From Ruminococcus sp. (GTDB lineage: Bacteria > Bacillota > Clostridia > Lachnospirales > Lachnospiraceae): a stretch of DNA of 33,227 bases. Below, in pieces: positions 2,705 to 31,389 of the stretch (its first letter is position 1; each line of letters begins with the position of its first letter). The notes beneath the pieces were generated by a model. The model was given only the letters and a program-made list of their open reading frames with translations, ran no database searches and had not been told where the DNA came from. The stretch is from contig JARIEI010000034.1 of assembly GCA_029256845.1 (NCBI GenBank), forward strand, positions 1 through 33,227, in the 5' to 3' direction. Both the position numbers and the translations under genes were made by a program.

Positions 2705-3649
2705 ATGGTACGAATGTTTTGCATAGCTGTGGGAATTATACTTTTATTCATTGTGTGTGCATTATGTGAAGGCAAGAGAGAATTACGCTTTTTTAAAGTA
2801 AGAAGGTATCAGTTTACCCATCCTGACTTTTTTATGTTAGATTCTGAAAAAAAGATTATCCTTTTGGCTGATCTTCATAATAAAGTGTATGGGAATAAAA
2901 ATGATATACTTCTTGAGAAGATTCGACAAGACAGTCCAGACTATATTTTAATAGCAGGAGATATGCTTGTTGGCAGGCCAGAGGCAAAGTTAAAAGAAGC
3001 ACAAGAATTTTTGTGTGAATTACCTAAAATATGTCCGGTTTATTACGGACTTGGAAATCATGAACAGCGAATGAAAGTATATCCGGAAATTTATGGGGAA
3101 GGGATTTATTTAAATTTCCGGAATACACTAAAAGATGCAGGAATTCATTTTTTAGAGAATGAGCGTGTGACATTGCAGTGTGATCGCATGAAGATAGATA
3201 TTGCTGGTCTAGAACTTCCTATGGATACCTATCAAAGATTTCGTCGTACCACAATATCTGGAAAAGATATTGAGAATATAATAGGAAAAGCATCAAAGCA
3301 TTTTCAAATTTTAATTGCTCACAATCCAGTGTTTTTTCCAGCATACAAAGAGTGGGGAGCAGATTTAACGCTAAGTGGTCATTTGCATGGTGGAATTATC
3401 AGAATTCCAGGGTTTGGTGGTCTTATTACTCCACAAGCAGCACTTTTTCCGAAATATTCTGGAGAAATGACGGTGGAGGAAAATCAAGCAATTGTTGTAA
3501 GCCGTGGACTTGGAACACATACGATTAATTATCGTATTTTTAACCCGGCAGAAGTGGTTTCCATCTCACTTTTGCCATATGCGAATAAGAAAAAAACAAC
3601 AGTTTTGGAGAATAAATATGGGGATACCAGTAAAATTAGAAGTGTTTGA
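2705..3649 (+). CDS. Membrane-anchored metallophosphoesterase (calcineurin-like, YaeI type)
   Basis: A 314-residue protein with one N-terminal membrane segment (about residues 4-20) followed by a calcineurin-like phosphoesterase domain. The metal-binding motifs appear in order: DLH (D56, H58), GD (85-86), GNHE (117-120), an AHNP motif (H206) and GHLHGG (225-230, H226 and H228). This set supports a two-metal phosphohydrolase. Relatives of this architecture include YaeI-type proteins thought to act on lipid-linked or UDP-sugar phosphates at the membrane, but the substrate here cannot be told from sequence. AGGAAAGG precedes ATG 2705. The last 32 bases overlap the start of scpA in another frame, which suggests coupled translation. 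Confidence 0.82.
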   Translation: MVRMFCIAVGIILLFIVCALCEGKRELRFFKVRRYQFTHPDFFMLDSEKKIILLADLHNKVYGNKNDILLEKIRQDSPDYILIAGDMLVGRPEAKLKEAQEFLCELPKICPVYYGLGNHEQRMKVYPEIYGEGIYLNFRNTLKDAGIHFLENERVTLQCDRMKIDIAGLELPMDTYQRFRRTTISGKDIENIIGKASKHFQILIAHNPVFFPAYKEWGADLTLSGHLHGGIIRIPGFGGLITPQAALFPKYSGEMTVEENQAIVVSRGLGTHTINYRIFNPAEVVSISLLPYANKKKTTVLENKYGDTSKIRSV

Positions 3650-4361
3650 AGGACCATTGGATCTTTTACTTCATTTGATTGATAAAAATAAAATCGATAT
3701 CTACGATATACCGATTGTGGAGATTACAAGTCAGTACATGGATTATATTCGAAGTATGCAAGAAAGTAACCTAGATATTATGAGTGAATTTCTTGTAATG
3801 GCAGCAACGCTTTTAGACATAAAATGTAAAATGCTGCTTCCAAAAGAAGAAAAGGAAGAAGAGGAAGAGGAAGATCCTCGTCAAGCGCTTGTAGAACAAC
3901 TTCTACAATATAAGATGTATAAATATATTTCTTATGAATTAAAAGATAGACAAGAAGAAGCAGAACTTGTTTTGTACAAAAATCCAACGATACCAGGTGA
4001 AGTGGCAGAATATGAGGAACCTGTAGATTTGGATGAACTTCTAGAAGGAATTAATATGTCTGTTCTTGACAAAATTTTTCAAGAAGTCATGAAACGACAA
4101 GATGCAAAGATTGATCCAGTGCGCAGTAAATTTGGTAAGATTGAAAAGGAAGAAGTGCCGTTGCCGATGAAACTTGCGTATGTACAAGAGTATGCGAAAA
4201 CACATCGTAGATTCCGTTTTAAGGCATTGTTAGAAAGTCAAAACAGTAGGATGCATGTTGTTGTTACATTTTTAGCAGTGTTAGAGTTGATGAAAACGGG
4301 AAATATTCGTGTAGAACAGGAGGAAATATGCGGAGATATTATGATACAATCTCTGCTATGA
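3618..4361 (+). CDS. scpA: Segregation and condensation protein A (kleisin of the SMC complex)
   Basis: A 247-residue kleisin that bridges the Smc ATPase heads and, with ScpB, forms the bacterial condensin that compacts and segregates chromosomes. The N-terminus shows the family signature VFEGPLDLLLHLI followed by a DIYDIPI block; the middle has an acidic Lys/Glu-rich linker (a run of glutamates near residue 75), and the C-terminus is the winged-helix region that binds Smc. The frame is open further upstream, but the ATG at 3618 gives the canonical N-terminus and has TTGGAG about eight bases before it. The start lies inside the end of the preceding phosphoesterase gene, and scpB begins seven bases after the stop. 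Confidence 0.94.
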   Translation: MGIPVKLEVFEGPLDLLLHLIDKNKIDIYDIPIVEITSQYMDYIRSMQESNLDIMSEFLVMAATLLDIKCKMLLPKEEKEEEEEEDPRQALVEQLLQYKMYKYISYELKDRQEEAELVLYKNPTIPGEVAEYEEPVDLDELLEGINMSVLDKIFQEVMKRQDAKIDPVRSKFGKIEKEEVPLPMKLAYVQEYAKTHRRFRFKALLESQNSRMHVVVTFLAVLELMKTGNIRVEQEEICGDIMIQSLL

Positions 4362-4368
4362 AGAAGAT

Positions 4369-4947
4369 ATGAACAAGGCGAGTATAAAAAAAATGAAAGG
4401 AATTATAGAGGCTATTTTGTTTACAATGGGGGATTCCGTGGAATTGTCTAAAATCGCCAATGCAATTGAATGTGAGGAAAGTGTTACAAAAGAGATCATT
4501 CAAAGCATGATAAAAGACTATGAAGATATAGGTAGAGGGATTCAGATTATTGAACTTGGGAATTGTTACCAGATGTGTACAAAAAAAGATGCATATGAAG
4601 CGTTGATAAAAATTGCAAGACAACCGAAGAAATATGTATTGACAGATGTGCTTTTGGAAACGTTATCTATTATTGCATACAAGCAACCAGTAACAAAACT
4701 TGAAATTGAAAAGATTCGAGGGGTTAGTTCTTCTCATGCGGTCAACAAATTAGTGGAATTTGGACTAGTTGAAGAAGTGGGAAGGTTAGATGCGCCTGGA
4801 AAACCAATTTTATTTGGAACCACAGAAGAATTTCTGCGCCGCTTTAGTGTGCAATCTTTGGAAAATCTGCCGATAATAGAACATACGCAAATCGAGCATT
4901 TTAAAGAAGAGGCTGAAGATGAAGCACACTTGAAATTGGATTTATAA
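4369..4947 (+). CDS. scpB: Segregation and condensation protein B
   Basis: A 192-residue winged-helix dimer that binds the ScpA linker and regulates the Smc-ScpAB ring. It shows the ScpB N-terminal pattern (IIEAILF, then GDSVELSKIA) and the well-conserved central block LETLSIIAYKQPVTKLEIEKIRGV, here around residues 103-126, followed by a GLVEEVGRLDAPGKPILFGTT stretch typical of the second winged helix. The acidic C-terminal tail is short. The first ATG is used; an internal ATG at 4393 would also give a plausible N-terminus. Only seven bases separate it from scpA, so the two are made together as expected for complex partners. A 9-base inverted repeat spans its stop codon. Confidence 0.94.
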   Translation: MNKASIKKMKGIIEAILFTMGDSVELSKIANAIECEESVTKEIIQSMIKDYEDIGRGIQIIELGNCYQMCTKKDAYEALIKIARQPKKYVLTDVLLETLSIIAYKQPVTKLEIEKIRGVSSSHAVNKLVEFGLVEEVGRLDAPGKPILFGTTEEFLRRFSVQSLENLPIIEHTQIEHFKEEAEDEAHLKLDL

Positions 4948-5013: not shown

Positions 5014-6243
5014 ATGAAAAAAAGAATGATCGCTGTTTTCCTTAGCTGTGTAGCATTACTTAGTGCATTGTTGCAAATATCAAAAAAAAGCATTGTTTAC
5101 GCAGCAGAGGGAGAACCACAAGAATTGTATGCCCGTTCTGCTGTATTAATGGATGCAGATACTGGGCGTATTTTATTTTCAAAAGCAGGAAATGAAAAAA
5201 GAGCAATGGCAAGTACAACTAAAATTATGACGTGTATCCTAGCTTTGGAAAACGGAAATCTTGAAAGTGTCGTTACAGTTTCCAAAAATGCTGTTAGGCA
5301 GCCAAAAGTACATCTTGGAGCTGCACAAGGAGATACTTTTTACTTAAAGGATTTATTGTTTTCATTAATGCTAGAGTCTCACAATGACTCTGCAGTTATG
5401 ATTGCAGAGCATATTGCAGGTTCTGTAGAGAAGTTTGCAGCACTTATGAACAAAAAAGCAAAAGAACTATCATGCAGGCATACATATTTTATTACACCAA
5501 ATGGATTAGATGCTAAGGATGATCAAGATTTTCATCATACAACGGCAGAGGATTTGGCAAAAATCATGAGGTATTGCGTGAATATCTCTCCGGAAAAAGA
5601 AAAGTTTATCAACATTACTGGAACAAAAGAATATCACTTTACGGATTGTGATGGTCAAAAAAAATATTATTGTAGAAATCATAATGCATTTTTGGAAATG
5701 ATGGAAGGAGCATTTTCTGGAAAGACGGGATTTACAGGTGATGCTGGATATTGCTATGTAGGTGCATTGAAAAAAGACAATAAGAATTTAATCGTTGCAC
5801 TACTTGGATGTGGATGGCCAAACAATAAAGCATATAAATGGAGTGATAGTAAAAAATTAATGACCTATGGATTGGAGTATTTTGAAAATCGCAATATTTG
5901 GAAAAATGTATCAGTACGAAAGCTACATGTCGTTCACGGGATTGATGAGAAATGTCCATTAAAAAAATCAACATATGTGAAAGTGAAAATTAAAAATCCT
6001 GATCCGAATTGGAAAGTGCTTTTACATAAGTGCGATCAAGTAGATGTAAAAATATATAAGAAACAAAGTGTGCAAGCGCCGATTCGTAAGGGAGACAAGG
6101 TTGGAGAAATTTTGTATTTGTTAAATGGAAAAGAATTACGAAGATTTGATTTAGTGGCGGAAAAATCAGTTAGAAAGATCTCTTATAAACATTATTTAAA
6201 AACAGTACAAAAGATCTATTACAATGTTAAAAAAATAGCATAA
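5014..6243 (+). CDS. D-alanyl-D-alanine carboxypeptidase, second paralogue (DacF/PBP5-like)
   Basis: A 409-residue secreted S11 peptidase that removes terminal D-alanine from wall peptides. The signal peptide is about 31 residues (basic start, hydrophobic core, cleavage near VYAAEG). Active-site motifs: STTK at 67-70 (nucleophile Ser67), SHN at 122-124 and KTG at 237-239, followed by GFTGDAG. The C-terminal third is a basic beta-rich domain. It differs clearly from the paralogue at 1463: the second motif is SHN rather than SAN, and it has extra length around residues 190-225. GGGG precedes ATG 5014 by nine bases. Position after scpAB recalls the link between scpAB and a carboxypeptidase gene (dacB) in Bacillus, where the enzyme acts in spore cortex synthesis; such a role here is only inference. 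Confidence 0.9.
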   Translation: MKKRMIAVFLSCVALLSALLQISKKSIVYAAEGEPQELYARSAVLMDADTGRILFSKAGNEKRAMASTTKIMTCILALENGNLESVVTVSKNAVRQPKVHLGAAQGDTFYLKDLLFSLMLESHNDSAVMIAEHIAGSVEKFAALMNKKAKELSCRHTYFITPNGLDAKDDQDFHHTTAEDLAKIMRYCVNISPEKEKFINITGTKEYHFTDCDGQKKYYCRNHNAFLEMMEGAFSGKTGFTGDAGYCYVGALKKDNKNLIVALLGCGWPNNKAYKWSDSKKLMTYGLEYFENRNIWKNVSVRKLHVVHGIDEKCPLKKSTYVKVKIKNPDPNWKVLLHKCDQVDVKIYKKQSVQAPIRKGDKVGEILYLLNGKELRRFDLVAEKSVRKISYKHYLKTVQKIYYNVKKIA

Positions 6244-7800: not shown

Positions 7801-8565
7801 TTGAAAAAGAAAATCAGTATAGTAGGTCTTGTGTTATTACTGATCTTTAGTTTTTCCGGTTGTGGGAAAAAGGCGGAAGACAAACCAGTATATGACAAAG
7901 AGGCTATGACCGCTAATGTAGAACGAATTGTTGAGACTTTCCGTGAAATGACAGATGAAGACTTTCAAGTCTTTGAAGATATGCCAGATGTGCAGCTTAC
8001 AATGACGATGGTAACAGCTGATCTTCCAATTGAAGGGGAAGATTTTCTTTCCATGATTGAAGCGTGGAAAGCCGGAGTGATTGAATGTGGTGAAATCAGA
8101 GAAATCAAAGATTATAATTTTGAAGAATTAAAATCTGGAGCAGTCGTTACTCTTGATACCGAGTTTGAAGAAAGGAACGGAGAGATTGTTGTAAAGTTTG
8201 ATGAAAAAATGAATATGGAATCTATGACAGTGAATGCAGACTATTCTATGGGTGAGATCCTGGAGAAAGCGGGACTTAACACAATTTTAGGAATGGGAAC
8301 TGTATTTGCAGTATTGATCTTTATTTCGTTTATCATTTATTTATTTAAATATATACCTGTTCTTGAAGCAAAATTCAGCAGAAAACCAAAAACAACTACT
8401 GAAGCAAAGACAACGACTACAAAGGTTGTAGAAGAGGTAGAAGAAACTGCTGATGATGAAGAATTGATTGCAGTAATTGCAGCGGCAATTGCGGCAGCAG
8501 AAGGAACATCAACAGATGGTTTTGTTGTACGTTCTATTAAGAGAAGAAAAACAAACAGATGGTAA
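7801..8565 (+). CDS. OadG-like subunit of the sodium pump, with lipoprotein N-terminus and extracellular domain
   Basis: A 254-residue protein starting at TTG 7801 (AGAGGTGA upstream). It has a lipoprotein signal with lipobox FSGC, Cys21 being the lipidation site. Residues 22-155 form a soluble domain on the outer face, one membrane helix spans about 162-183, and a Thr-rich, then acidic linker (195-222) leads to a short cytoplasmic end with an Ala-rich helix and FVVRSIKRR. That ending resembles the C-terminus of OadG-type gamma/delta subunits, which hold decarboxylase complexes together at the membrane. Classical OadG is much smaller (about 80-120 residues) and has no extracellular domain, so this is an extended form. 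Its place between the carboxyltransferase and the biotin carrier supports the assignment. Confidence 0.75.
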   Translation: MKKKISIVGLVLLLIFSFSGCGKKAEDKPVYDKEAMTANVERIVETFREMTDEDFQVFEDMPDVQLTMTMVTADLPIEGEDFLSMIEAWKAGVIECGEIREIKDYNFEELKSGAVVTLDTEFEERNGEIVVKFDEKMNMESMTVNADYSMGEILEKAGLNTILGMGTVFAVLIFISFIIYLFKYIPVLEAKFSRKPKTTTEAKTTTTKVVEEVEETADDEELIAVIAAAIAAAEGTSTDGFVVRSIKRRKTNRW

Positions 8566-11689: not shown

Positions 11690-12646
11690 GTGGCAAATCG
11701 AAATAATACAAATCAGAAAAATCATACCGATGAACTTTTGTCTAGGATTGAAGGACAATATAAAAAATTGAGCAAAGGTCAAAAAAAATTGGCAGAGTAT
11801 GTATGCAATAACTATGATAAGGCGGTTTTTTTAACAGCTTCAAAGTTGGGTGAGGTTGTAGGCGTTAGCGAATCAACCGTTGTAAGATTTGCAATCCAAC
11901 TTGGATACAAAGGATATCCAAGTTTTCAAAAAGCTTTAGAAGAAGTGGTTTGTAATAAATTAAGCTCCATTCAACGAATGGAAGTGACCCATGGGCGAAT
12001 TACACAACCGCAAATTTTAGACAGTGTACTTCAGTCAGATATCGATAAAATAAAAGTAACACTTTCAGAAATTGATCAAGTGGTATTTCAAGAAGCAATT
12101 GATACAATTTTAAGTGCAAAACGCATATATATCATAGGAATCAGAAGCTGTGCTCCACTCGCAATGTTTTTAAATTTTTATTTAAATTTAATATGTGACC
12201 ATGTTACTTTAATAAATACAACAGGGTCTACAGAGATTTTTGAGCAATTGGTACGAATTGGAGAAGAAGATGTATTAATCGGAATAAGTTTTCCAAGATA
12301 CTCGGTTCGTACGTTGAAGGCGTTAGAATTTGCGAGCAATCGAAAAGCAAAAGTAATCACGCTGACTGATAGTATCCATTCTCCTATGACATTATATTCT
12401 TCTTGTAATTTAATCGCAAAAAGTAACATGGTTTCCATTGTAGATTCATTAGTTGCTCCACTAAGTGTGATCAACGCACTTATTGTTGCGTTATGTATGA
12501 AACGTCAAAAAGAAGTAATTTCTACACTTGAAACATTAGAAGATGTATGGGGAGAATATCAAGTGTATAGTGGTGATGAATTGAATCGAGTGAATGATGA
12601 GTTTACTACAAAATTGACAGATGCAAAGGGGAATAGTTATGAGTAA
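11690..12646 (+). CDS. MurR/RpiR-family transcriptional regulator
   Basis: A 318-residue regulator starting at GTG 11690, with AAGGAG just upstream. The N-terminal ~80 residues form the HTH_6 domain, recognisable by LSKGQKKLAEYV and SKLGEVVGVSESTVVRFAIQLGYKGYPSFQKAL (helix-turn-helix about 52-75). The C-terminal half is a SIS sugar-phosphate-binding domain: AKRIYIIGIRSCAPLA near residue 143-158 and GEEDVLIGISFPRYS near 193-207. Family members sense phosphosugars and repress or activate sugar or wall-sugar catabolism. No sugar gene is nearby; the next gene overlaps by eight bases and encodes a flavoprotein, so the target is not clear from context. It may regulate its own operon or distant genes. 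Confidence 0.88.
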   Translation: MANRNNTNQKNHTDELLSRIEGQYKKLSKGQKKLAEYVCNNYDKAVFLTASKLGEVVGVSESTVVRFAIQLGYKGYPSFQKALEEVVCNKLSSIQRMEVTHGRITQPQILDSVLQSDIDKIKVTLSEIDQVVFQEAIDTILSAKRIYIIGIRSCAPLAMFLNFYLNLICDHVTLINTTGSTEIFEQLVRIGEEDVLIGISFPRYSVRTLKALEFASNRKAKVITLTDSIHSPMTLYSSCNLIAKSNMVSIVDSLVAPLSVINALIVALCMKRQKEVISTLETLEDVWGEYQVYSGDELNRVNDEFTTKLTDAKGNSYE

Positions 12647-13868
12647 AGTACTAATTATAGGTGGAGGAGCAGCAGGGATGATGGCAGGTGTTTTTGCTGC
12701 GAGAAATGGCCATGAAGTTCATATTTTTGAAAAGAATGAAAAACTTGGAAAAAAACTCTTTATTACCGGTAAAGGTAGATGTAACATTACAAATGCTGCA
12801 GATATTGAAACACTATTAAATGCAGTTGTGACCAATCCTAAATTTTTATATAGCGGATTTTACAGCTTTACAAATGATCAGGTTATTGATTTTTTTGAAG
12901 AATTAGGAGTGAAAACAAAAATTGAACGAGGAGACAGAGTCTTTCCAGCGTCCGATCATTCATCAGATGTTATTCAAGCGTTCTCAAGAGAGTTAAAGAC
13001 ACTCCAAGTATCTATTCATTTGGATACAGAAGTAGACAAAGTGATAGTAAAAGATCACAAGATCGAAGGGGTTCAGTTAAAAGATGGAAAGATAGTAAAA
13101 GGAGATAGTTGTATCGTTGCAACAGGAGGACTTTCTTATGCATCTACCGGATCTACAGGAGATGGATATCGTTTTGCAAAAGAAGCAGGACACCAGGTAA
13201 CAGAACTTCGTCCAGCACTTGTACCAATGGAAACAAAAGAGCCCTACGTTCAGGAACTACAAGGATTGTCTCTTCGAAATGTAGAAATTCGTATTTTGGA
13301 CGACAAAAAGGTGATTTATAAAGAGTTTGGGGAGATGCTTTTTACACACTACGGAGTGAGTGGACCCCTTATAATCAGTGCTAGTAGTAAAGTGGGAGAT
13401 CGTTTGATAAAGAAAAATCTCACTTTATCCATTGATTTAAAACCGGCACTTTCTTTTGAACAATTGGATGCAAGAGTGCTTAGAGATTTTCAAGAAAATA
13501 GGAATAAACAATTTAAAAACGCGGTGGATAAACTGTTTCCAGCAAAATTAAAACCGGTGCTTCTTGAACTTAGCGGAATTGATCTAGAAAAGAAAGTAAA
13601 TGAGATAAGTCGCGAAGAACGAGAACGTTTTGTTCATTTAATGAAAGATTTTCGACTTACATTGACGGGATTAAGAAGTTTTAAAGAGGCAATAATTACA
13701 AAAGGTGGGGTAAACGTCAAAGAAATAGATCCGGGAACTATGGAATCAAAGTCTGTGGACAATCTTTACTTTGTAGGAGAGGTCCTTGATTTAGATGCAC
13801 TAACCGGAGGATTTAATTTACAGATTGCATGGTCTACAGCGTATTTAGCAGGAAATGCAATAAAATAA
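12639..13868 (+). CDS. HI0933/YhiN-family FAD-dependent oxidoreductase
   Basis: A 409-residue flavoprotein with a classical N-terminal dinucleotide-binding motif, GGGAAGMMAG at residues 8-17, an acidic residue at the end of the second strand (IFEKN), and the HI0933 signature GKGRCNITNA around 43-52. Near the C-terminus the block GGVNVKEIDPGTMESK is followed by GLYF-type and FNLQIAWSTAYLAG segments that complete the FAD site. Proteins of this family include BaiN-type and aminoacetone-oxidase-like enzymes, but most have no known substrate, so only the fold and cofactor are claimed. ATG 12639 is chosen because AAGGGGA lies upstream; it overlaps the regulator's end by eight bases, so translation is likely coupled. 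Cytidylate kinase follows 20 bases after the stop. Confidence 0.88.
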   Translation: MSKVLIIGGGAAGMMAGVFAARNGHEVHIFEKNEKLGKKLFITGKGRCNITNAADIETLLNAVVTNPKFLYSGFYSFTNDQVIDFFEELGVKTKIERGDRVFPASDHSSDVIQAFSRELKTLQVSIHLDTEVDKVIVKDHKIEGVQLKDGKIVKGDSCIVATGGLSYASTGSTGDGYRFAKEAGHQVTELRPALVPMETKEPYVQELQGLSLRNVEIRILDDKKVIYKEFGEMLFTHYGVSGPLIISASSKVGDRLIKKNLTLSIDLKPALSFEQLDARVLRDFQENRNKQFKNAVDKLFPAKLKPVLLELSGIDLEKKVNEISREERERFVHLMKDFRLTLTGLRSFKEAIITKGGVNVKEIDPGTMESKSVDNLYFVGEVLDLDALTGGFNLQIAWSTAYLAGNAIK

Positions 13869-14569: not shown

Positions 14570-15427
14570 ATGGAAGTTATCCGAGCAAAGACAGCAGGTT
14601 TTTGTTTTGGCGTAAAGCGAGCGGTAGATACAGTATACGAGCAGGCAAAACAAAATCAAGAGAAAAAAACAATATATACGTATGGACCTATTATACACAA
14701 CGCTGAAGTCGTAAAAGACCTTGAAAAGCGTGGGATTAAAGTTATAAACAAAGAACAAGAGTTAGAGATGTTAGAAGAAGGAACGGTTATCATCCGTTCT
14801 CATGGAATTGAAGAACGAATCTACAAAAAAATGAAAGAAAAAAACATAAATATTGTGGATGCAACATGCCCCTTTGTAAAAAAAATACATAATATTGTGC
14901 AGAAAGAAAGTAGAGCAGGAAAGCATATTGTTATCATTGGAAATCCTGAACATCCAGAGGTAATTGGAATTAAAGGATGGGCAGGACAAGAAGTGACGGT
15001 GATTCAAAATCCACAAGAAGCAGAAGATTTTGAGCTAGAAGTAGATAAAAAAATCTGTGTAGTATCACAGACGACATTTAATTACAACAAATTTCAAGAT
15101 TTAGTTGAAATCATTTCAAAAAAGAGTTATGATATAAATGTTTTAAATACAATCTGTAATGCTACAAAGGAGCGTCAAAGTGAAGCTCGCACCATTGCAG
15201 AGAAGGTGGATGCTATGATCGTGATTGGTGACAAACATAGTTCCAACACCCAGAAGTTATTTGAAATTTGCAAAAAAGCATGTAAAGATACGTACTACAT
15301 ACAGACACTTGAAGATTTGGATTTAAATCAATTAAGGTCCGTGGAAACAGTAGGTATTACAGCGGGGGCATCCACGCCCAACAATATAATTGAGGAGGTC
15401 CAAAGTAATGTCAGAATTATCTTTTGA
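14570..15427 (+). CDS. ispH: 4-hydroxy-3-methylbut-2-enyl diphosphate reductase
   Basis: A 285-residue Fe-S enzyme that makes IPP and DMAPP in the last step of the MEP isoprenoid pathway. The three cysteines that hold the 4Fe-4S cluster are in place: C12 in AGFCFGVKRA, C100 in DATCPFVKK and C196 in TICNATKERQ. Substrate-binding histidines are visible at 43 (IHN), 78 (SHG) and 128 (PEHPE, with Glu130). The protein ends soon after ITAGASTPNNIIEEV, so it is the stand-alone form. In many Clostridium species IspH is fused to S1 domains; here the S1 gene begins inside the last 20 bases in a different frame. GAGGG precedes ATG 14570, 12 bases after cmk. Confidence 0.95.
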   Translation: MEVIRAKTAGFCFGVKRAVDTVYEQAKQNQEKKTIYTYGPIIHNAEVVKDLEKRGIKVINKEQELEMLEEGTVIIRSHGIEERIYKKMKEKNINIVDATCPFVKKIHNIVQKESRAGKHIVIIGNPEHPEVIGIKGWAGQEVTVIQNPQEAEDFELEVDKKICVVSQTTFNYNKFQDLVEIISKKSYDINVLNTICNATKERQSEARTIAEKVDAMIVIGDKHSSNTQKLFEICKKACKDTYYIQTLEDLDLNQLRSVETVGITAGASTPNNIIEEVQSNVRIIF

Positions 15428-16600: not shown

Positions 16601-17920
16601 ATGAGACTTTTAACCTTTAAAGGCGGTATTCATCCAGAAGATGGAAAAAGTCTTTCAAAAGATCATCCTATTAAAGAACTATTTCCAGGAAATGAATTAG
16701 TGTACCCATTGTCACAGCATATAGGTGCACCAGCAGTTCCTATTGTGAAAAAAGGAGATTCTGTTTTAAAAGGACAGAAAATTGCTGAGCCAGGCGGGTT
16801 TGTGTCGTCTCCAGTTTATGCGTCTGTATCAGGAACGGTAAAGGGGATTGAGAAACGCTTTAATCCAACAGGTACAAAAGTAGATTGTATTATTATAGAG
16901 AATGATGGTTTATACGAAGAAGTTAAGTATGCATCGGTACAGTCAGTAGATGAACTATCAAAAGAAGAAATTATAAAGAAAATCCAAGAAGCTGGTGTTG
17001 TGGGAATGGGAGGGGCTGGTTTTCCAACCCATGTAAAATTATCACCAAAAGATGCAGATAAAATTGAATATATTATTGCAAATGGAGCAGAGTGTGAACC
17101 ATATTTGACTGCTGACTATCGAAGTATGTTGGAAAATACAGAAGAAATTGTAAGTGGAATGCGTATTGTGTTATCGCTATTCAAAAATGCAAAAGCAATT
17201 TTTGGTGTTGAAGATAACAAGTTGGATTGTGTTGCTAAGTTAAAAGAAGCAATCAAAGAAGAGCCGCGCATGGAAGTGATGACACTTCAGACAAAATATC
17301 CACAAGGAGCAGAACGTCAGCTTATTTATGCGCTAACAAAACGAGCATTAAATTCTTCTATGCTTCCAGCGGATGCAGGCTGTATTGTAGATAATGTAGA
17401 AACATTTGAAAGTATTCATAAGGCAGTGATGGAGGGAAAACCTTTAATTGAACGTGTTGTAACGGTAAGTGGAGATGCCGTTGCATGTCCAGCTAACTAC
17501 AGAGTTCCATTAGGAACAAATCACAGAGAACTAATAGAAGAAGCGGGTGGATTCAAAGAATGGCCAGAAAAGATTATTTCTGGTGGTCCAATGATGGGAT
17601 TTGCGATGCCTGTCCTTGATGTACCAGTTACAAAAACATCTTCCGGAATTCTGGCTTTCTTGAAGGATGAAGTTAAACAGGATGTACCATCTGCATGTAT
17701 CAATTGTGGAAGGTGTGTAGAAGTCTGTCCTAGCAGGATTATACCATCAAGACTTGCTGACCTTGCAGAACGACATGAGGAAGCAGGATTTGTTTCTATG
17801 AATGGTCTTGAATGCGTGGAATGTGGTTCTTGTAGTTATGTTTGCCCTGCCAAACGTCAGTTAAAACAGGCAATTGGCTCTATGCGAAAGATGGCACTTG
17901 CAAACAGAAAAAAGAAATAA
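16601..17920 (+). CDS. rnfC: Rnf electron transport complex subunit C
   Basis: A 439-residue subunit that exchanges electrons with NAD at the cytoplasmic side of the Rnf complex (ferredoxin:NAD oxidoreductase coupled to Na+ or H+ export). It has the N-terminal HPEDGK region and barrel domain, the NADH/FMN-site loop GVVGMGGAGFPTHVKL at 132-147 followed by NGAECEPYL, and two 4Fe-4S motifs at C366/C369/C372/C376 and C405/C408/C411/C415. The open frame extends back through the upstream terminator hairpin, which cannot be coding; ATG 16601 has AAAGGTGGA in front. I saw no convincing promoter in the 55 bases between that hairpin and the start. First gene of the order C-D-G-E-A-B. Confidence 0.96.
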   Translation: MRLLTFKGGIHPEDGKSLSKDHPIKELFPGNELVYPLSQHIGAPAVPIVKKGDSVLKGQKIAEPGGFVSSPVYASVSGTVKGIEKRFNPTGTKVDCIIIENDGLYEEVKYASVQSVDELSKEEIIKKIQEAGVVGMGGAGFPTHVKLSPKDADKIEYIIANGAECEPYLTADYRSMLENTEEIVSGMRIVLSLFKNAKAIFGVEDNKLDCVAKLKEAIKEEPRMEVMTLQTKYPQGAERQLIYALTKRALNSSMLPADAGCIVDNVETFESIHKAVMEGKPLIERVVTVSGDAVACPANYRVPLGTNHRELIEEAGGFKEWPEKIISGGPMMGFAMPVLDVPVTKTSSGILAFLKDEVKQDVPSACINCGRCVEVCPSRIIPSRLADLAERHEEAGFVSMNGLECVECGSCSYVCPAKRQLKQAIGSMRKMALANRKKK

Positions 17921-22689: not shown

Positions 22690-23046
22690 ATGAAAAAAAA
22701 TGATTGGATATTAATTGGCTGTCTAGTTCTTGTAGCAGGAATCTTCTCTTTGTTTTATGTTTTTGCAAAAACAGATGAGAATGCTAAAGTTATTATCACA
22801 ATTGATGGACAGAACTATGGAACGTATTCGTTGAAAGACGAGACAGAGATTGACGTGAAAGGGAAAAATACACTGTGTATAAAAGATGGGCAAGTTAAGA
22901 TGTTAGAGGCAGATTGCAAAGATCAGATTTGTGTACATCATAAACCAATTTCGAAGTCAGGGGAAAGCATCATATGTCTTCCAAATAAATTGATTGTTAC
23001 CATTGAAAGTGAAGAGTCAGAAAAGTTGGATGCTGTTTCACAGTGA
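22690..23046 (+). CDS. NusG domain II-containing membrane protein (EetA-like)
   Basis: A 118-residue protein with an N-terminal membrane helix (about 7-26) and an extracytoplasmic NusG-domain-II fold (30-110). The domain shows the family pattern C76-x4-C81 in DCKDQICVHHKPI, followed by GESIICLPNKLIVTI with Cys96; Cys63 is a further cysteine. Despite its name the domain is not a transcription factor. Similar proteins occur next to ApbE and a Gx-transporter protein in flavin-based electron-transfer loci (EetA of Listeria, from memory), so a redox or flavinylation role is inferred. ATG 22690 is preferred over the upstream TTG at 22675 because TGGAGGA lies six to eleven bases before it. Confidence 0.78.
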   Translation: MKKNDWILIGCLVLVAGIFSLFYVFAKTDENAKVIITIDGQNYGTYSLKDETEIDVKGKNTLCIKDGQVKMLEADCKDQICVHHKPISKSGESIICLPNKLIVTIESEESEKLDAVSQ

Positions 23047-25309: not shown

Positions 25310-25720
25310 ATGAGTTCAGCAAAACATTTTACAGAAGTACTGATCGGAGGAAAGGTTTATACATTAAGTGGTTTTGAAGGGGAGGAGTATCTTCAGAAAG
25401 TGTCTTCCTATTTGAATCATAAGATCACAGAGTGTACCAACAGTGAAGGATACAGAAAACAAAGTGCTGATACACGAAATGTACTCCTTGCCTTGAATAT
25501 TGCAGACGATTATTTTAAGGCGAAAAAGCAAGGGGATTCTCTTGAAAACGACATTGAGTTAAAAGACAAAGAGATGTACGATTTAAAGCATGAATTGATT
25601 TCTGTTCAGATTAAATTAGAAAATGCGGAAAAAGAACTTGCAAAAATGAAAGAAGATAACAACAATCTTCAGATGCAGATTGTAAAATTAGAAACTGAAA
25701 TGAAAAATCGAAGAAAATGA
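25310..25720 (+). CDS. zapA: Cell division protein ZapA
   Basis: A 136-residue cytoplasmic protein that bundles FtsZ filaments at the division site. The N-terminal domain has the ZapA pattern VLIGGKVYTLSGFEGEEYLQKVSSYLNHKI, then TRNVLLALNIADDYFKAKKQ; residues about 75-136 form a long charged coiled coil through which ZapA dimerises. The coil is longer than in the ~85-residue Bacillus protein, as is common in Clostridia. AAGGAGGG precedes ATG 25310 and a strong promoter lies just before. A small hairpin follows the stop. Confidence 0.85.
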   Translation: MSSAKHFTEVLIGGKVYTLSGFEGEEYLQKVSSYLNHKITECTNSEGYRKQSADTRNVLLALNIADDYFKAKKQGDSLENDIELKDKEMYDLKHELISVQIKLENAEKELAKMKEDNNNLQMQIVKLETEMKNRRK

Positions 25721-25774: not shown

Positions 25775-28180
25775 TTGAAAAAAGACAAATCGAATCACAG
25801 AAATATAGAAATTTTGGCACCAGCAGGTTCTTATGAAAGTTTTATGGCAGCTATACGTGCAGGTGCGGATGCAGTTTATGCTGGAGGACCTTATTTTGGA
25901 GCTCGTGCTTTTGCAGATAATTTTACAGTAGAAAAATTATTAGAAGCGATTGATTATGCACACCTTCATGGAAGAAAATTTTATCTTACAGTGAATACAC
26001 TTCTAAAAGATCATGAGATGAGTCGTCTGTACGAGTATCTTCTTCCATTGTATCGGCAAGGATTGGATGCGGTAATTGTTCAAGATGTGGGAGTACTTGA
26101 CTTTGTGAGAAGTCATTTTCCAGAAATGGATATTCACGCCAGCACACAAATGACAATTACAAATCTAAAAGGCGCCAAGTTTTTGGAAGAACAAGGGGTG
26201 GAGAGAGTTGTTCCGGCAAGAGAGCTTAATTTAAAAGAAATTGCACAAATAGCAAAAGGAACGAATCTTGAAATTGAATGTTTTGTGCATGGTGCACTTT
26301 GCTACTGTTATTCAGGTCAGTGCCTTTTGAGTAGTCTTATTGGTGGACGAAGTGGAAATAGAGGACAGTGTGCGCAGCCATGTCGATTACCTTATACAGT
26401 AGAGAAAAAAACGGCTTACTTTATGAGTCCAAAAGATATTTGTACCCTAGATTATATTCCGGAAATGATAGAGGCAGGAATCACATCTTTTAAAATTGAA
26501 GGACGAATGAAAAAACCAGAGTATGTGGCTGCGGTTACATCTTTATATAAAAAATACACAGATCTTTATTTCGAAAAGGGGAGAGAAAATTATAAAGTAT
26601 CTGCCGAGGATGTAGAGAAGTTAATGGATGTATACAATCGAGGCGGATTTAGCAAAGGTTATTACCATCAGCAAAATGGGAAAGATATGATTTCACTAAA
26701 TCGTCCAAATCACGCCGGAGTAGCTGCATTGAAAGTGATTTCTCAAAATGGAAGAGAGGTTACGGCTTCTGTTTTGACTGATATTCACAAAGGAGATATT
26801 TTAGAAATTGCAAAGAAAAAAGAATACTCCGATGGAAAGGAAAATTATACTTTTGGAAAGGAATACACAAAAGGACAGAAAGCAACCATTCTTGTTCCGC
26901 GTGGATACATGTATACAAAAGGAATGATTTTACATAGAATCAGAAATCAAGAACTTTTAGGAACCATTCAAGAGCAATATGGATCTGGATTGGTTCAAGA
27001 ACCAATTACAGGATATTTTCAGGCTATGGTTGGTAAACCTGCAGTGCTTACCCTAAATAAGAATGAGGTGTCTGTTTCAGTTTGTACGCAAGATCCTGTA
27101 GAAGAAGCTCAAAATCAACCGTTAGATCCAGAACGATTACGGAAGCAATTAAATAAAACAGGAAACGCAGAATTTAGATTTGAATCACTTGAGATTTCTG
27201 TGGAGGGAAACATCTTTCTTCCAATGCAAAAATTAAATGAACTTCGAAGAACGGCTATGGAAGAATTGGAAAAGAAAATATGCGTTTCCTATCGACGTGA
27301 AGAGAAGGAGTGTAAAGAGGAAGTGCAAATCGATCTTCAGTCTAGACAATCAAAGAAGTCTCAATTGACTGTCCTTGTTGAGACAAATGAGCAATTTTCA
27401 GCTGTATTAGAAAGTAAGATAATCTCACGTGTATACGTGGATGCAAATTATTCGCATGATTTATTTAATGATGTTGAACTTCAAAATAAATGTGCAAAAT
27501 GTCATCAAAATGGAATAGAAATTTTTTTGGCCATGCCACATATTTTTCGAGAAAATGCGGTGCAATACTATGAGCAAAATTATGAGAAGTTTTTAAAACT
27601 GAAATTTGATGGAGTACTTGTTCGTAACTACGAAAGCGTTCAATTCCTAAAACAGAAGAATTATGAAAAAGAGATTCTTCCAGACTATAATCTCTATATA
27701 TTCAATCAAAGTGCAAAAGAATTTTGGCGAAATATTGGAATGTCAAAGTTTACAGCTCCTTTGGAATTAAATAAAAGAGAGTTGGAAAGACTTGGAATAA
27801 AAGAGGCAGAACTTTTATTGTATGGAAGAATTCCATTAATGATTTCAGCTCAGTGTATACAAAAAACTTCCGAAGGTTGTTCAAAAGTCCCTAGAACATT
27901 ATGGATGAAAGATCGATTAAAAAAGCAACTTCCTGTTAAAAATTTCTGTAAATTCTGTTATAATATTATTTATGATTCAGAAGTTTTGTGGATTGGAGAT
28001 TTAAAACAACAAATAAAAGAAATTTCTCCTATGAGTTTTAGGTGCCAGTTCACTACGGAAACAGCGGTACAAGTAGCAGATATTTTACATGTATGTGAAA
28101 CAGTTCTTTTCAAGGATCGTATTTTAGAAAAGCTTGAAGTTCCATATCATCATGGACATTTTGATCGAGGAATTTCATAG
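25775..28180 (+). CDS. U32-family protein with C-terminal extension (RlhA/YhbU-like)
   Basis: An 801-residue protein. The N-terminal domain (about 10-300) is a U32 TIM barrel, with LAPAGSYESFMAAIRAGADAVYAGG at the start and the Cys-rich signature ECFVHGALCYCYSGQCLLSS followed by GNRGQCAQPCRLPY. Cysteines 169, 176, 199 and 203 are candidate 4Fe-4S ligands. A DUF3656-like middle region and a long C-terminal part with KNFCKFCYN follow. Although called peptidases, characterised relatives such as RlhA and TrhP make 5-hydroxylated pyrimidines in rRNA and tRNA, so an RNA-modification role is the better inference. It starts at TTG 25775, with GGAGGAG upstream. It is longer than E. coli RlhA (about 650). 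Confidence 0.85.
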   Translation: MKKDKSNHRNIEILAPAGSYESFMAAIRAGADAVYAGGPYFGARAFADNFTVEKLLEAIDYAHLHGRKFYLTVNTLLKDHEMSRLYEYLLPLYRQGLDAVIVQDVGVLDFVRSHFPEMDIHASTQMTITNLKGAKFLEEQGVERVVPARELNLKEIAQIAKGTNLEIECFVHGALCYCYSGQCLLSSLIGGRSGNRGQCAQPCRLPYTVEKKTAYFMSPKDICTLDYIPEMIEAGITSFKIEGRMKKPEYVAAVTSLYKKYTDLYFEKGRENYKVSAEDVEKLMDVYNRGGFSKGYYHQQNGKDMISLNRPNHAGVAALKVISQNGREVTASVLTDIHKGDILEIAKKKEYSDGKENYTFGKEYTKGQKATILVPRGYMYTKGMILHRIRNQELLGTIQEQYGSGLVQEPITGYFQAMVGKPAVLTLNKNEVSVSVCTQDPVEEAQNQPLDPERLRKQLNKTGNAEFRFESLEISVEGNIFLPMQKLNELRRTAMEELEKKICVSYRREEKECKEEVQIDLQSRQSKKSQLTVLVETNEQFSAVLESKIISRVYVDANYSHDLFNDVELQNKCAKCHQNGIEIFLAMPHIFRENAVQYYEQNYEKFLKLKFDGVLVRNYESVQFLKQKNYEKEILPDYNLYIFNQSAKEFWRNIGMSKFTAPLELNKRELERLGIKEAELLLYGRIPLMISAQCIQKTSEGCSKVPRTLWMKDRLKKQLPVKNFCKFCYNIIYDSEVLWIGDLKQQIKEISPMSFRCQFTTETAVQVADILHVCETVLFKDRILEKLEVPYHHGHFDRGIS

Positions 28181-28194
28181 TAAGTAGGTGAAAA

Positions 28195-29631
28195 ATGATT
28201 AATATTGTAGTGGAATTATCAAAATATCTTATTATCATACTGATGGGAGTTTATACATTCTCATGTTTTTCAGTATTTGCAAAGGAAAATGATGAAGAGC
28301 GAAAGTGGGTACTTCTTCGACAAAATATTTTAATGTTTTTGATTCATTTTACGGCATATTTTGTTATATATTTAAAAATTCAAGAGAAAAAAATTATTGT
28401 ATTTTATTTAGCGCAAGTTGTATTTTTTTTACTAGTGATCATTTTGTACCGTATTCTTTATCCAAAAGTATCACGGTTGATTGTTAATAATATGTGCATG
28501 CTTCTTAGTGTCGGACTTATTATGATTACAAGATTAGCGTTTCCGATGGCTGTAAAGCAATTTGTTTTTGCAGTGGTAGGAACCAGTATTGGATTGATTG
28601 TTCCAGTTTTAATTCGTAAGATAAAAGGTGTGCAAGATTGGACGATGATTTACGCAGGGATTGGTATTGCATCCTTACTTCTCGTAGCGGTGTTTGCAAG
28701 ATACTCAGGCGGGGCAAAACTTGGATTTACCATTCCTGGAATTGGAATCACAATTCAACCATCCGAATTTGTGAAGATTTTATTTGTGTTTTATGTGGCA
28801 TCTAGTTTGAGTAAAGATGCATCTTTTAAGAATATAGTGATTACTACTGCGATTGCGGCAGGGCATGTACTAGTGCTTGTTTTATCAACAGATCTAGGAG
28901 CAGCATTAATCTTTTTTGTTGTATATTTAGTGATGCTTTATGTGGCAACTAGAAATCCACTTTATGCACTTGCGGGAATTGGAGCAGGTAGCCTAGCCTC
29001 TGTTGTAGGGTATCGCTTGTTTGCACATATTAAAGTACGTGTTGCGGCTTGGAAAGATCCGTTTTCTGCCTATGATTCAGGTGGATACCAAGTTGCCCAA
29101 TCCCTGTTTGCAATTGGAACAGGAGGTTGGTTTGGTATGGGACTTTATCAAGGGCTTCCAGATAGCATTCCAGTGGCAGAGTCTGATTTTATATTCTCTG
29201 CTATTTCAGAGGAACTAGGTCTTATTTTCGCATTATGTTTGATTTTAGTATGTGTGAGTTGTTATGTGATGTTTCTTAATATTGCAATGGCCCTTCATAA
29301 TCAATTTTATAAATTGATTGCACTTGGACTTGGAACATGCTATGTTTTTCAAGTTTTTTTAACCATAGGAGGGGTGACGAAGTTTATTCCGTCTACAGGG
29401 GTGACACTGCCACTTGTAAGTTATGGAGGAAGCTCCATTTTAAGTGTAATGATCATGTTTGGCATTATACAAGGACTTTATATTGTAAGAGAAGATGAGG
29501 AAGAGAATATTGAGAAGAGAAGAGAGAGACAACTTCGTAGAAGTGGATATTCCAAGAAGAAAAATCAAAAAAGAACACAGCGTAGAGAAAAGACAACGTT
29601 CGAAGAGGTTCCGAAACAAAGAATTCGCTAG
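28195..29631 (+). CDS. SEDS peptidoglycan glycosyltransferase (FtsW/RodA/SpoVE family)
   Basis: A 478-residue polytopic membrane protein that polymerises lipid II into glycan strands. The SEDS core runs from about residue 150; typical segments are GIGITIQPSEFVKILFVFYVAS, the extracellular loop with DSGGYQVAQSLFAIGTGG and the conserved Asp in ESDFIFSAISEELG, and the signature STGVTLPLVSYGGSSIL near 405-421. It has about four extra helices before the core (1-130) and a basic cytoplasmic tail (about 435-478) rich in Lys/Arg. The next gene, a class B PBP, starts inside that tail, so the pair matches the known SEDS-bPBP partnership. Whether it serves division, elongation or sporulation is not decided by sequence. 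Confidence 0.88.
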   Translation: MINIVVELSKYLIIILMGVYTFSCFSVFAKENDEERKWVLLRQNILMFLIHFTAYFVIYLKIQEKKIIVFYLAQVVFFLLVIILYRILYPKVSRLIVNNMCMLLSVGLIMITRLAFPMAVKQFVFAVVGTSIGLIVPVLIRKIKGVQDWTMIYAGIGIASLLLVAVFARYSGGAKLGFTIPGIGITIQPSEFVKILFVFYVASSLSKDASFKNIVITTAIAAGHVLVLVLSTDLGAALIFFVVYLVMLYVATRNPLYALAGIGAGSLASVVGYRLFAHIKVRVAAWKDPFSAYDSGGYQVAQSLFAIGTGGWFGMGLYQGLPDSIPVAESDFIFSAISEELGLIFALCLILVCVSCYVMFLNIAMALHNQFYKLIALGLGTCYVFQVFLTIGGVTKFIPSTGVTLPLVSYGGSSILSVMIMFGIIQGLYIVREDEEENIEKRRERQLRRSGYSKKKNQKRTQRREKTTFEEVPKQRIR

Positions 29632-31021
29632 AGTGACATATGCTTTTGTTGTACTTTTTTTGGCATTGATGTGCTATATTGTATATTTTAATATTGTACG
29701 GGCTAAGACGATTGTAAATAGCCCGTATAATCAAAGACAAGATGCATTTGCAGATCGAATCATACGAGGCACTCTTACAGATCGATCAGGAAATATTCTT
29801 GCTGAAACAAAGGTGTTAGAAGACGGAACGGAAATTCGAAACTATCCATATGGATCAGCATTTGCACATGTCATTGGATATAGCAATGCACATATTGGAA
29901 AAAGTGGATTGGAGTCTGTTGAAAATTTTGAATTGTTAACTTCAAATTCATTCTTTTTAGAAAAAATAGCCAATGATTTTAGAGGGCAGAAGAATATGGG
30001 GGATACAGTAGTAACAACATTGGATGCGAACCTTCAACAGGCAGCTTACAATGCGCTTGGTGACAATAAGGGTGGCATCGTTGTTATGGAAGCAGGTACT
30101 GGTAAGATTTTAGCTATGGTATCAGGTCCTACATTTGATCCAAATACTGTTGAAGACAGTTGGGATTATTTAAATTCAGAAGATAGTGGCAGCCCACTTC
30201 TTAATAGAACTACACAAGGATCGTATGCACCAGGATCCACCTTTAAAGTCATTACTGCACTGGAGTTTATGAGAGAATATAGTGATTATGAAAATTATAC
30301 TTATGAGTGCAGTGGGCAGATTGAAAAAGATGGAACAACTATTCCGTGTTTCAACGGAAATGTTCATGGTCATGAAGATTTACGAGCTTCTCTTGCCAAT
30401 TCATGCAATGCATCTTTTGCAAATATTGGATTAATGTTAGACAAAACTGCATATCGTCAAACGGTGGAGAGTTTGCTTTTTAATAAAAAGTTACCATGCT
30501 TGTTTGATTATAGTAAAAGTTTATTTCAAGTCACAAAGGATAGCGGAACAGCTGAGATGATGATGACAGCCATGGGGCAAGGAAAGACTATGACAAGTCC
30601 GTACCATATGGCGTTAATAACCGCTGCAATTGCTAATGGTGGTGTTTTGATGGAACCATATCTTGTAGAAAAAGTTACCAATCACAAGGGAGCACAAATT
30701 CGTAAGAACGTTCCTAAAAGTTATAAAAAGCTAATGTCCGTACAGGAGGCTGCGCAGTTAAAATCTTACATGCATTCTGTAATTGAAGAAGGAATTACAG
30801 CTACCGCACTTCAAGGATTATCTTATTCCGTTGCTGGAAAAACAGGGACCGCAGAATATAGCTTAGTAGATGAAAATAAAACCCATTCTTGGTTTATTGG
30901 TTTTACAAATGTGGATCATCCTGAATTGGTAATTAGTGTTGTGATTGAAGGAAATGATGGAGATTTAAGTACCAACGCAGTTTCAATTGCAAGACAGGTA
31001 TTAGATGCGTATTATAATTAG
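29495..31021 (+). CDS. Class B penicillin-binding protein (transpeptidase, FtsI/PbpA type)
   Basis: A 508-residue peptidoglycan transpeptidase that cross-links strands made by its SEDS partner. A basic cytoplasmic tail is followed by one membrane helix (about 47-69), a short dimerisation region, and a transpeptidase domain with STFK at 248-251 (nucleophile Ser248), SCN at 303-305 and KTG at 449-451. It lacks the long N-terminal and PASTA regions of many PBPs and is close in size to actinobacterial PbpA. The start is uncertain: ATG 29495 has a poor ribosome site; TTG 29510 has GAGG at better spacing; GTG 29633, just after the SEDS stop, has none and would remove the basic tail. The first two starts overlap the SEDS gene by more than 120 bases. 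Confidence 0.88.
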   Translation: MRKRILRREERDNFVEVDIPRRKIKKEHSVEKRQRSKRFRNKEFARVTYAFVVLFLALMCYIVYFNIVRAKTIVNSPYNQRQDAFADRIIRGTLTDRSGNILAETKVLEDGTEIRNYPYGSAFAHVIGYSNAHIGKSGLESVENFELLTSNSFFLEKIANDFRGQKNMGDTVVTTLDANLQQAAYNALGDNKGGIVVMEAGTGKILAMVSGPTFDPNTVEDSWDYLNSEDSGSPLLNRTTQGSYAPGSTFKVITALEFMREYSDYENYTYECSGQIEKDGTTIPCFNGNVHGHEDLRASLANSCNASFANIGLMLDKTAYRQTVESLLFNKKLPCLFDYSKSLFQVTKDSGTAEMMMTAMGQGKTMTSPYHMALITAAIANGGVLMEPYLVEKVTNHKGAQIRKNVPKSYKKLMSVQEAAQLKSYMHSVIEEGITATALQGLSYSVAGKTGTAEYSLVDENKTHSWFIGFTNVDHPELVISVVIEGNDGDLSTNAVSIARQVLDAYYN

Positions 31022-31044: not shown

Positions 31045-31389
31045 ATGCAAATAAAATTTTATTGTAATTTGTTTATAAGCGAAGATTTTGAAAGCAAAAA
31101 GAAAAAAATCATAAGAAAATTACGAAACAATAAAGTACAACCGCATGTCTATGTGCTGGCATTGCCATTTGAAACTTGTAATCAGTTAGAATTTTACTCT
31201 TCTATGATGCTTCGGCAACATGCTTATCAAAGCAAACAGATTTTTGTTGTAGGAATTGCAAATGGATATGAGGATGCAATTTACATGACGCAAGAGATTG
31301 TTCAAAAAGTATACGAAGACACGAAAGATACAAACATTCGAAAGTATATTGAACGAAAGCAAGAAGAATTCGAAAAAGAAGGAAGGTAA
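31045..31389 (+). CDS. Conserved-looking unknown protein, 114 residues
   Basis: I do not recognise a family. The protein is soluble, with no signal peptide or membrane helix. It starts MQIKFYCNLFISEDF, has a basic patch (KKKKIIRKLRNNK, residues 19-31), a hydrophobic strand HVYVLALPF and a second strand QIFVVGIANGYEDAIYMT, and ends in a charged helix rich in Lys and Glu. The alternation of strands and helices suggests a small alpha/beta fold. GGAAGAG precedes ATG 31045 and the next gene starts five bases after the stop, so it is a real member of the operon running from the PBP to the DUF2953 protein. Its position suggests a role tied to wall or spore synthesis, but no function is claimed. Confidence 0.7.
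   Translation: MQIKFYCNLFISEDFESKKKKIIRKLRNNKVQPHVYVLALPFETCNQLEFYSSMMLRQHAYQSKQIFVVGIANGYEDAIYMTQEIVQKVYEDTKDTNIRKYIERKQEEFEKEGR

Follow-up and report, generated by a model that had tools for sequence, protein, structure and literature searches.

A long, conserved and apparently dual-coded overlap between a SEDS glycosyltransferase gene and its class B penicillin-binding protein gene in Lachnospiraceae

The end of a SEDS glycosyltransferase gene and the beginning of the class B penicillin-binding protein (PBP) gene that follows it appear, from comparison with relatives, to share 122 nt of coding DNA (29510-29631, + strand) in the window, by which is meant the whole stretch of 33,227 nt from Ruminococcus sp. 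that was analysed. Judged on these comparisons, the overlap is real, conserved and dual-coded, and lies in an otherwise ordinary SEDS-PBP pair. It comprises 39 SEDS residues plus the stop codon and 41 PBP codons, with position 1 of the PBP codons falling on position 2 of the SEDS codons, so that the PBP frame is +1 relative to the SEDS frame. Very probably, a single mRNA carries SEDS and PBP in two frames overlapping by 122 nt, with the PBP starting at the UUG codon at 29510. The sequence-only reading of the window had proposed long dual coding of the SEDS tail and the PBP start, and this has been borne out by suppression of synonymous change in both frames, examined together with codon resampling; the tail sequences quoted there for the two proteins also read as given. 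An overlap of ~120 nt is unusually long for same-strand bacterial neighbours, and is common in the family.

The gene pair and its neighbourhood

The open reading frame of the SEDS gene (FtsW/RodA/SpoVE-type; 28195-29631, + strand) encodes 478 amino acids and ends with the stop codon TAG at 29629-29631. Its match to PF01098 (E 4.2e-61, model positions 8-348 of 356) establishes family membership, and the closest solved chains are those of RodA/MrdB and FtsW. All of its matches to the NCBIfam ftsW, rodA and spoVE models fall below cut-off and by these models it can be assigned to none of the subtypes. It is one of four PF01098 matches in the source genome, an assembly of 2.08 Mb in 207 contigs; within its genus the analysis covered two genomes, and in the genera around G148 and G191 two and one.

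The PBP frame is open from ATG 29495 to 31021 and, counted from the preferred TTG start, the gene occupies 29510-31021 (+ strand). It matches PF00905 (E 1.2e-52) and PF21922 (E 6.3e-11). The presence of a transpeptidase domain and an N-terminal dimerisation domain with no GT51 match in Pfam identifies a class B PBP of the PbpA-like kind, and penicillin-binding protein A is among the named solved chains closest to it. The motif set for a class B PBP is SxxK, SxN and KTG, and the translation shows STFK, SCN and KTGT.

Upstream of the pair lie a ZapA-like gene (25310-25720, + strand; PF05164, E 8.1e-21) and, directly before the SEDS gene, a gene of the U32 peptidase family (25775-28180, + strand; PF01136, E 1.7e-91). 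Other neighbours are a DUF2953 gene and a YtfJ-type sporulation gene. The 114-amino-acid gene directly 3' of the PBP (31045-31389) gave no Pfam or NCBIfam match at E 0.001. Elsewhere in the window, D-alanyl-D-alanine carboxypeptidase genes (PF00768) at 1445-2623 and 5014-6243 flank scpA (3504-4361) and scpB (4369-4947). By its PBP the nearest named relative is Ruminococcus sp. isolate cluster1_bin.14 (92%), followed by Faecalicatena, Mediterraneibacter, Hespellia and Muricomes, names that point to Lachnospiraceae as the family.

Constraint on both reading frames

The check put forward in the sequence-only reading, whether the SEDS frame diverges normally at synonymous sites across the overlap, was run against the other genome of the genus. 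The divergence is not normal: synonymous differences are 3/36 in the overlap, as against 138/291 in the rest of the gene, and the PBP frame behaves alike (2/36 in the overlap, 194/400 in the rest of the gene). The six differences in the overlap fall three times on SEDS codon position 3, three times on position 1 and never on position 2 (41 codons), as against 146, 26 and 8 differences at positions 3, 1 and 2 of the SEDS core (326 codons). Core divergence between the two genomes amounts to 180 differences in 978 nt for SEDS and 256 in 1386 nt for the PBP.

The comparison was extended to 15 tree-independent pairs, picked by eye from a FastTree tree so as to have separate paths, with expectations matched for amino acid and pair. 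Pooled over these pairs, synonymous differences in the overlap were 68 of a possible 406 in the SEDS frame, where 184.1 were expected (z -12.5), and 79 of a possible 412 in the PBP frame, where 185.7 were expected (z -11.4), a suppression of approximately 2.5-fold in each frame. The Lys, Arg and Glu codons taken alone gave z values of -9.8 (SEDS frame) and -8.3 (PBP frame). Not every pair reached p<0.05 by itself; 11/15 did so for SEDS and 12/15 for the PBP. The controls, which are not perfectly flat, were the first 40 codons of SEDS (176/457 observed, 199.5 expected, z -2.4) and the last 40 codons of the PBP (228/519 observed, 242.7 expected, z -1.4).

Frame-separated ratios were calculated by a simplified version of the idea behind OLGenie, with single-pair values for 14 pairs; all are point values. 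The seven TTG pairs nearest to the window gave a dNN/dSN of 0.42 for SEDS and a dNN/dNS of 0.38 for the PBP, and the clade of L016-L025 gave 0.63 and 0.38, the pair L022/L021 having a SEDS ratio of 1.29. Three Mediterraneibacter-like pairs, in which the best PBP start is a later ATG, have weaker suppression (z -2.6 and -4.1) and ratios of 0.70 for SEDS and 1.35 for the PBP, with no sign of PBP constraint. From these alignments dual constraint is clear in the window's own clade and weaker for the SEDS tail in L016-L025. With both frames open, synonymous variation reduced in both and purifying selection estimated on each, the stretch has the signature of a true dual-coded overlap.

Distribution of the overlap in relatives

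The family survey took the top of a similarity-ordered list of 179 genomes with a match, leaving out G002 and G170 where the match lies at a contig start. It covered 108 loci, of which 105 were used, L026 (no SEDS on the contig), L120 (single frame) and L132 (contig end) being dropped. PBP starts were picked by the best ribosome-site energy, a rule of thumb which can mispick (e.g. L023, L073, L140). By this rule the overlap ranges from none to >200 nt, and among the best-matching 105 usable family loci 99 have an overlap of 4 nt or more, 76 of 30 nt or more, 55 of 60 nt or more and 31 of 100 nt or more, with a median of 65 nt. The same phase is found in 100 of these 105 loci, and in 83/83 where the overlap is at least 20 nt. 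The best-scored start codon is ATG in 54, TTG in 42 and GTG in 9.

Outside the family, 40 loci of the order were examined and 34 used. Those dropped were L168, L180, L186 and L189, which have no SEDS match, and L166 and L169, where the SEDS frame continues into the PBP without a change of frame. Overlaps of at least 20 nt occur in 9/34 (at least 60 nt in three, with a maximum of 341 nt) and overlaps of 1-19 nt in 15/34, while 10/34 have none. At order level, then, 25/34 have either no overlap or one shorter than 20 nt, and overlaps of 8 or 11 nt are frequent. Five family loci (L146, L147, L148, L149 and L150) have SEDS and PBP in a single open frame of 914 to 1009 codons. Five others (L069, L070, L075, L138 and L141) carry a different SEDS C-terminal motif in the overlap, T/D-L/F-E-x-K/R-I-x-E-x-T-E-x-S-L/I-N/H-W; this separate group of sequences suggests that SEDS tails may have a function of their own.

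The spread of lengths bears on the proposal, made in the sequence-only reading, that the overlap is a coupling device which fixes the SEDS:PBP synthesis ratio. SEDS and PBP act as a complex, and according to PMC10666635 heteromeric complexes are enriched among overlapping pairs; the 8 or 11 nt overlaps of order-level relatives would suit reinitiation, and a few relatives have one-frame versions. However, the length of the overlap is not conserved, as the family median by best-scored start and the range above illustrate, and that paper's measurements in E. coli and Haloferax show reinitiation to be local, whereas long overlaps start well upstream of the SEDS stop. Termination-reinitiation would place the PBP start within a few to ~20 nt of the upstream stop; the preferred start was found 122 nt before the SEDS end, far outside the measured range. 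The ratio proposal is left unsupported by these data and we regard it as unlikely.

Choice of the PBP start

The sequence-only reading offered ATG 29495 or TTG 29510 as the start of the PBP. The second of these has held up and the first, with its 137-nt overlap, has not. Starts were compared over 34 near loci, after exclusion of the same-place records L040, L041, L061 and L063, of L026 and L058 at contig starts and of the more distant L059 and L062. TTG is present in 27 of the 34 and ATG in 11, both being present in five and neither in one. In one of the 27 TTG loci, L050, the PBP frame is closed before the TTG and only 86 nt of open overlap remain, leaving 26. The near relatives have a common start site and phase, and the window's clade also shares the SEDS end F-E-E-V-P-K-Q-R-V/I-R. 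Ribosome-site (SD) energies favour TTG 29510 at -5.6 kcal/mol, with -4.4 for GTG 29543, -1.1 for GTG 29633 and -0.4 for ATG 29495. The core of the predicted site, GAGG at 29497-29500 (+ strand), lies 9 nt 5' of the TTG and is spelled by the SEDS codons for Asp-Glu-Glu.

The first Glu codon after this Asp is GAG in 26/26 of the near loci with TTG and an open frame, as against 2/8 of the others (Fisher p 2e-5), a value which overstates independence because all eight others belong to one Mediterraneibacter-like clade in the tree. This clade (L047, L048, L049, L050, L051, L053, L056 and L057) is without a usable TTG, its two Glu codons are mostly in the order GAA-GAG, and the PBP start that scores best in it is an ATG located deeper in the frame. 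The start site therefore appears to have moved there. Among TTG pairs the Glu codons flanking the Asp have no synonymous differences in the SEDS frame (0/12 and 0/12) and the Asp codon has 4/12. Between the TTG and the place of GTG 29543 there are 16/110 (a hand sum; p 6e-13 against 0.47), and a comparison stretch, in which 11 codons were scored at offsets -52 to -22, has 45/127 (also a hand sum). On this evidence the overlap most likely starts at TTG 29510 with 122 nt, and not at ATG 29495 with 137 nt.

A start at GTG 29543 (29543-29545, + strand), either alone or as a second in-frame start with an 89-nt overlap, draws on its fair ribosome-site energy and on the ATG or GTG found near the same place in several relatives. 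Its spacing from the site is long (12), L013 and L046 lack such a codon, and synonymous suppression is already present between the TTG and this GTG and at the GAGG site itself; a start there, alone or as a second one, is improbable.

The ATG at 29495-29497 (+ strand) lies in an open frame and, as a codon for initiation, is stronger than TTG, but it is distinctly improbable that the PBP starts at it. It exists because the SEDS Asp codon here is GAT; it is missing from the same-genus genome, where ACG is found, and from 23/34 near loci, its ribosome-site energy is the poorest of the four, and the Asp codon that creates it varies synonymously between two fixed Glu codons.

Seven further apparent overlaps, in longest-ORF coordinates, were seen elsewhere in the window (3504-3649, 8477-8565, 12621-12646, 13829-13868, 15390-15427, 17874-17920 and 22994-23046). 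Each is removed or shortened by an alternative start with a better ribosome-site score.

Base composition and other explanations of the conserved stretch

Purines make up 71% of the overlap and T 15%; among 320 segments of equal length from the window's other genes, only one reaches this purine content. No stop codon can be formed without a T, and purine-rich codons yield Lys, Arg, Glu and Gly in every frame. Since the stretch is low in T, an open second frame comes cheaply. Random synonymous recoding of the SEDS tail left the PBP frame open in 9928/20000 trials, which is unremarkable within this one genome. Recoding of the PBP tail left the SEDS frame open in 1/20000, which is remarkable, and chance openness was rejected as the sole explanation on this count, the comparative test being the decisive one. 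The purine bias of the DNA also accounts for the abundance of Lys, Arg and Glu in the two tails. The sequence-only reading had supposed that the two charged tails bind the same acidic partner; their charge follows from the base composition and nothing tested points to such a partner.

Lowered synonymous divergence might also come from an RNA element or a locally low mutation rate in place of dual coding. In favour of this, suppression is found jointly in the two frames and, to a slight degree, in the SEDS 5' control as well. However, Rfam gave no notable match (one at E 0.88, on the other strand), the consensus fold of 11 loci is only -1.34 kcal/mol with 2 of its 13 pairs changed on both sides, and the length of the stretch shifts in steps of three with both frames kept open, and the sequence on either side has diverged. 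Such an origin is very improbable.

A +1 frameshift in the overlap could yield some SEDS-PBP fusion protein, the PBP frame being +1 to SEDS and one-frame versions existing in relatives, but on inspection of the conserved stop (CGC TAG A) no known type of +1 slippery site was noticed and the event would be unneeded given the conserved ribosome site and TTG; it can be considered highly improbable. Weakest of all, and given almost no credence, is an annotation-type artefact in which the PBP starts at GTG 29633 (29633-29635, + strand) or later and the overlap codes for SEDS alone: all 715 hand-examined co-directional overlaps >60 bp are put among misannotations in PMC2478687, and the PBP frame could well be open by chance here, but the SEDS-frame synonymous sites are PBP codon position 2 and are strongly suppressed, and the PBP-frame motif N-K/R-E-F/Y upstream of this GTG is conserved even where the SEDS gene ends far earlier and overlap is lost (e.g. 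L027, L034, L038). The lack of a ribosome site at GTG 29633, noted in the sequence-only reading, was confirmed by the almost absent match there and the codon was rejected as a start. Misannotation would predict that one of the genes extends beyond its orthologues on the side of the overlap, and neither was found to do so.

Proposed mechanism and history

The comparisons show the predicted ribosome site and the UUG to be conserved, and both frames to be under apparent purifying selection, in near relatives. The GAGG site would be embedded in the part of SEDS that encodes a conserved Arg-Glu-Asp-Glu-Glu-Glu motif, just past the last membrane helix, and PBP translation would initiate from it at UUG 29510 within the SEDS frame. 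Both frames would then traverse the purine-rich stretch, which is predicted to encode the cytoplasmic C-terminal tail of SEDS and the cytoplasmic N-terminal tail of the PBP, as far as the TAG that ends SEDS (29629-29631). As a start codon UUG is weak and ATG stronger. Most of the PBP would come from new initiation events within the SEDS frame and not from termination-reinitiation at a stop 122 nt further on; reinitiation after the SEDS stop is unlikely over this distance because it is local in the pairs tested in PMC10666635. Ribosomes translating SEDS may help by opening a weak stem at the site, or they might hinder by covering it. The fold of the start region (-8.9 kcal/mol, z -0.99) is no stronger than that of shuffled sequences; at minimum energy the ribosome site is paired with SEDS sequence lying upstream of it.

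As to history, we infer an old, order-wide short overlap, often of 8 or 11 nt and in the same phase, which would have lengthened in Lachnospiraceae, presumably because stop codons seldom arise in purine-rich tails, whichever frame is read. The SEDS and PBP genes of a few relatives would have merged to one frame. More tentatively, and with less than even expectation on our part, the overlap may be a stable instance of long same-strand dual coding, maintained by selection in Lachnospiraceae, in which the tails of a complex evolve as one piece of DNA, initiation of the PBP is gated by passing SEDS ribosomes at a ribosome site coded by SEDS, and the arrangement is a halfway state toward single-frame proteins.

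Comparison with known systems

No report of a SEDS-PBP overlap was found in the literature among the matches listed. PMC2478687 accepts no co-directional overlap >60 bp, the longest real one being that of holD-rimI, at up to 56 bp. That overlap is likewise co-directional, terminal and conserved across genera; it measures 32 bp in E. coli, whereas the SEDS-PBP overlap is 122 nt and has constraint in both frames. The present case would be a well-supported exception to the 60-bp rule as worded there, at approximately twice that length and with counterparts in many genera. The rule encourages annotators to trim starts, and trimming here would cut off or mislabel the N-terminal tail of the PBP.

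Long phase-1 overlaps are described in PMC2542354 and PMC3887535, where annotated overlaps are counted and the bias is ascribed to composition. The SEDS-PBP overlap is also of phase 1, and ATG 29495, formed by the Asp codon GAT and the next G, is of the source type described there. It differs from those overlaps in having measured constraint in both frames. The short reinitiation-coupled pairs of PMC10666635 are also same-strand operon neighbours whose products form a complex, but the SEDS-PBP start lies 122 nt before the upstream stop and is served by an internal ribosome site of its own.

Single-frame SEDS-PBP fusions are stated in PMC10449877 to exist. They have the same order of proteins and the same join, the C-terminal tail of SEDS to the N-terminal tail of the PBP on the cytoplasmic side. 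Unlike these fusions, the window does not have one frame for both proteins; it has two frames, separated by the SEDS stop codon, and two predicted proteins. The overlap offers a natural system for how partner proteins share code, and a possible route from overlapping genes to one gene.
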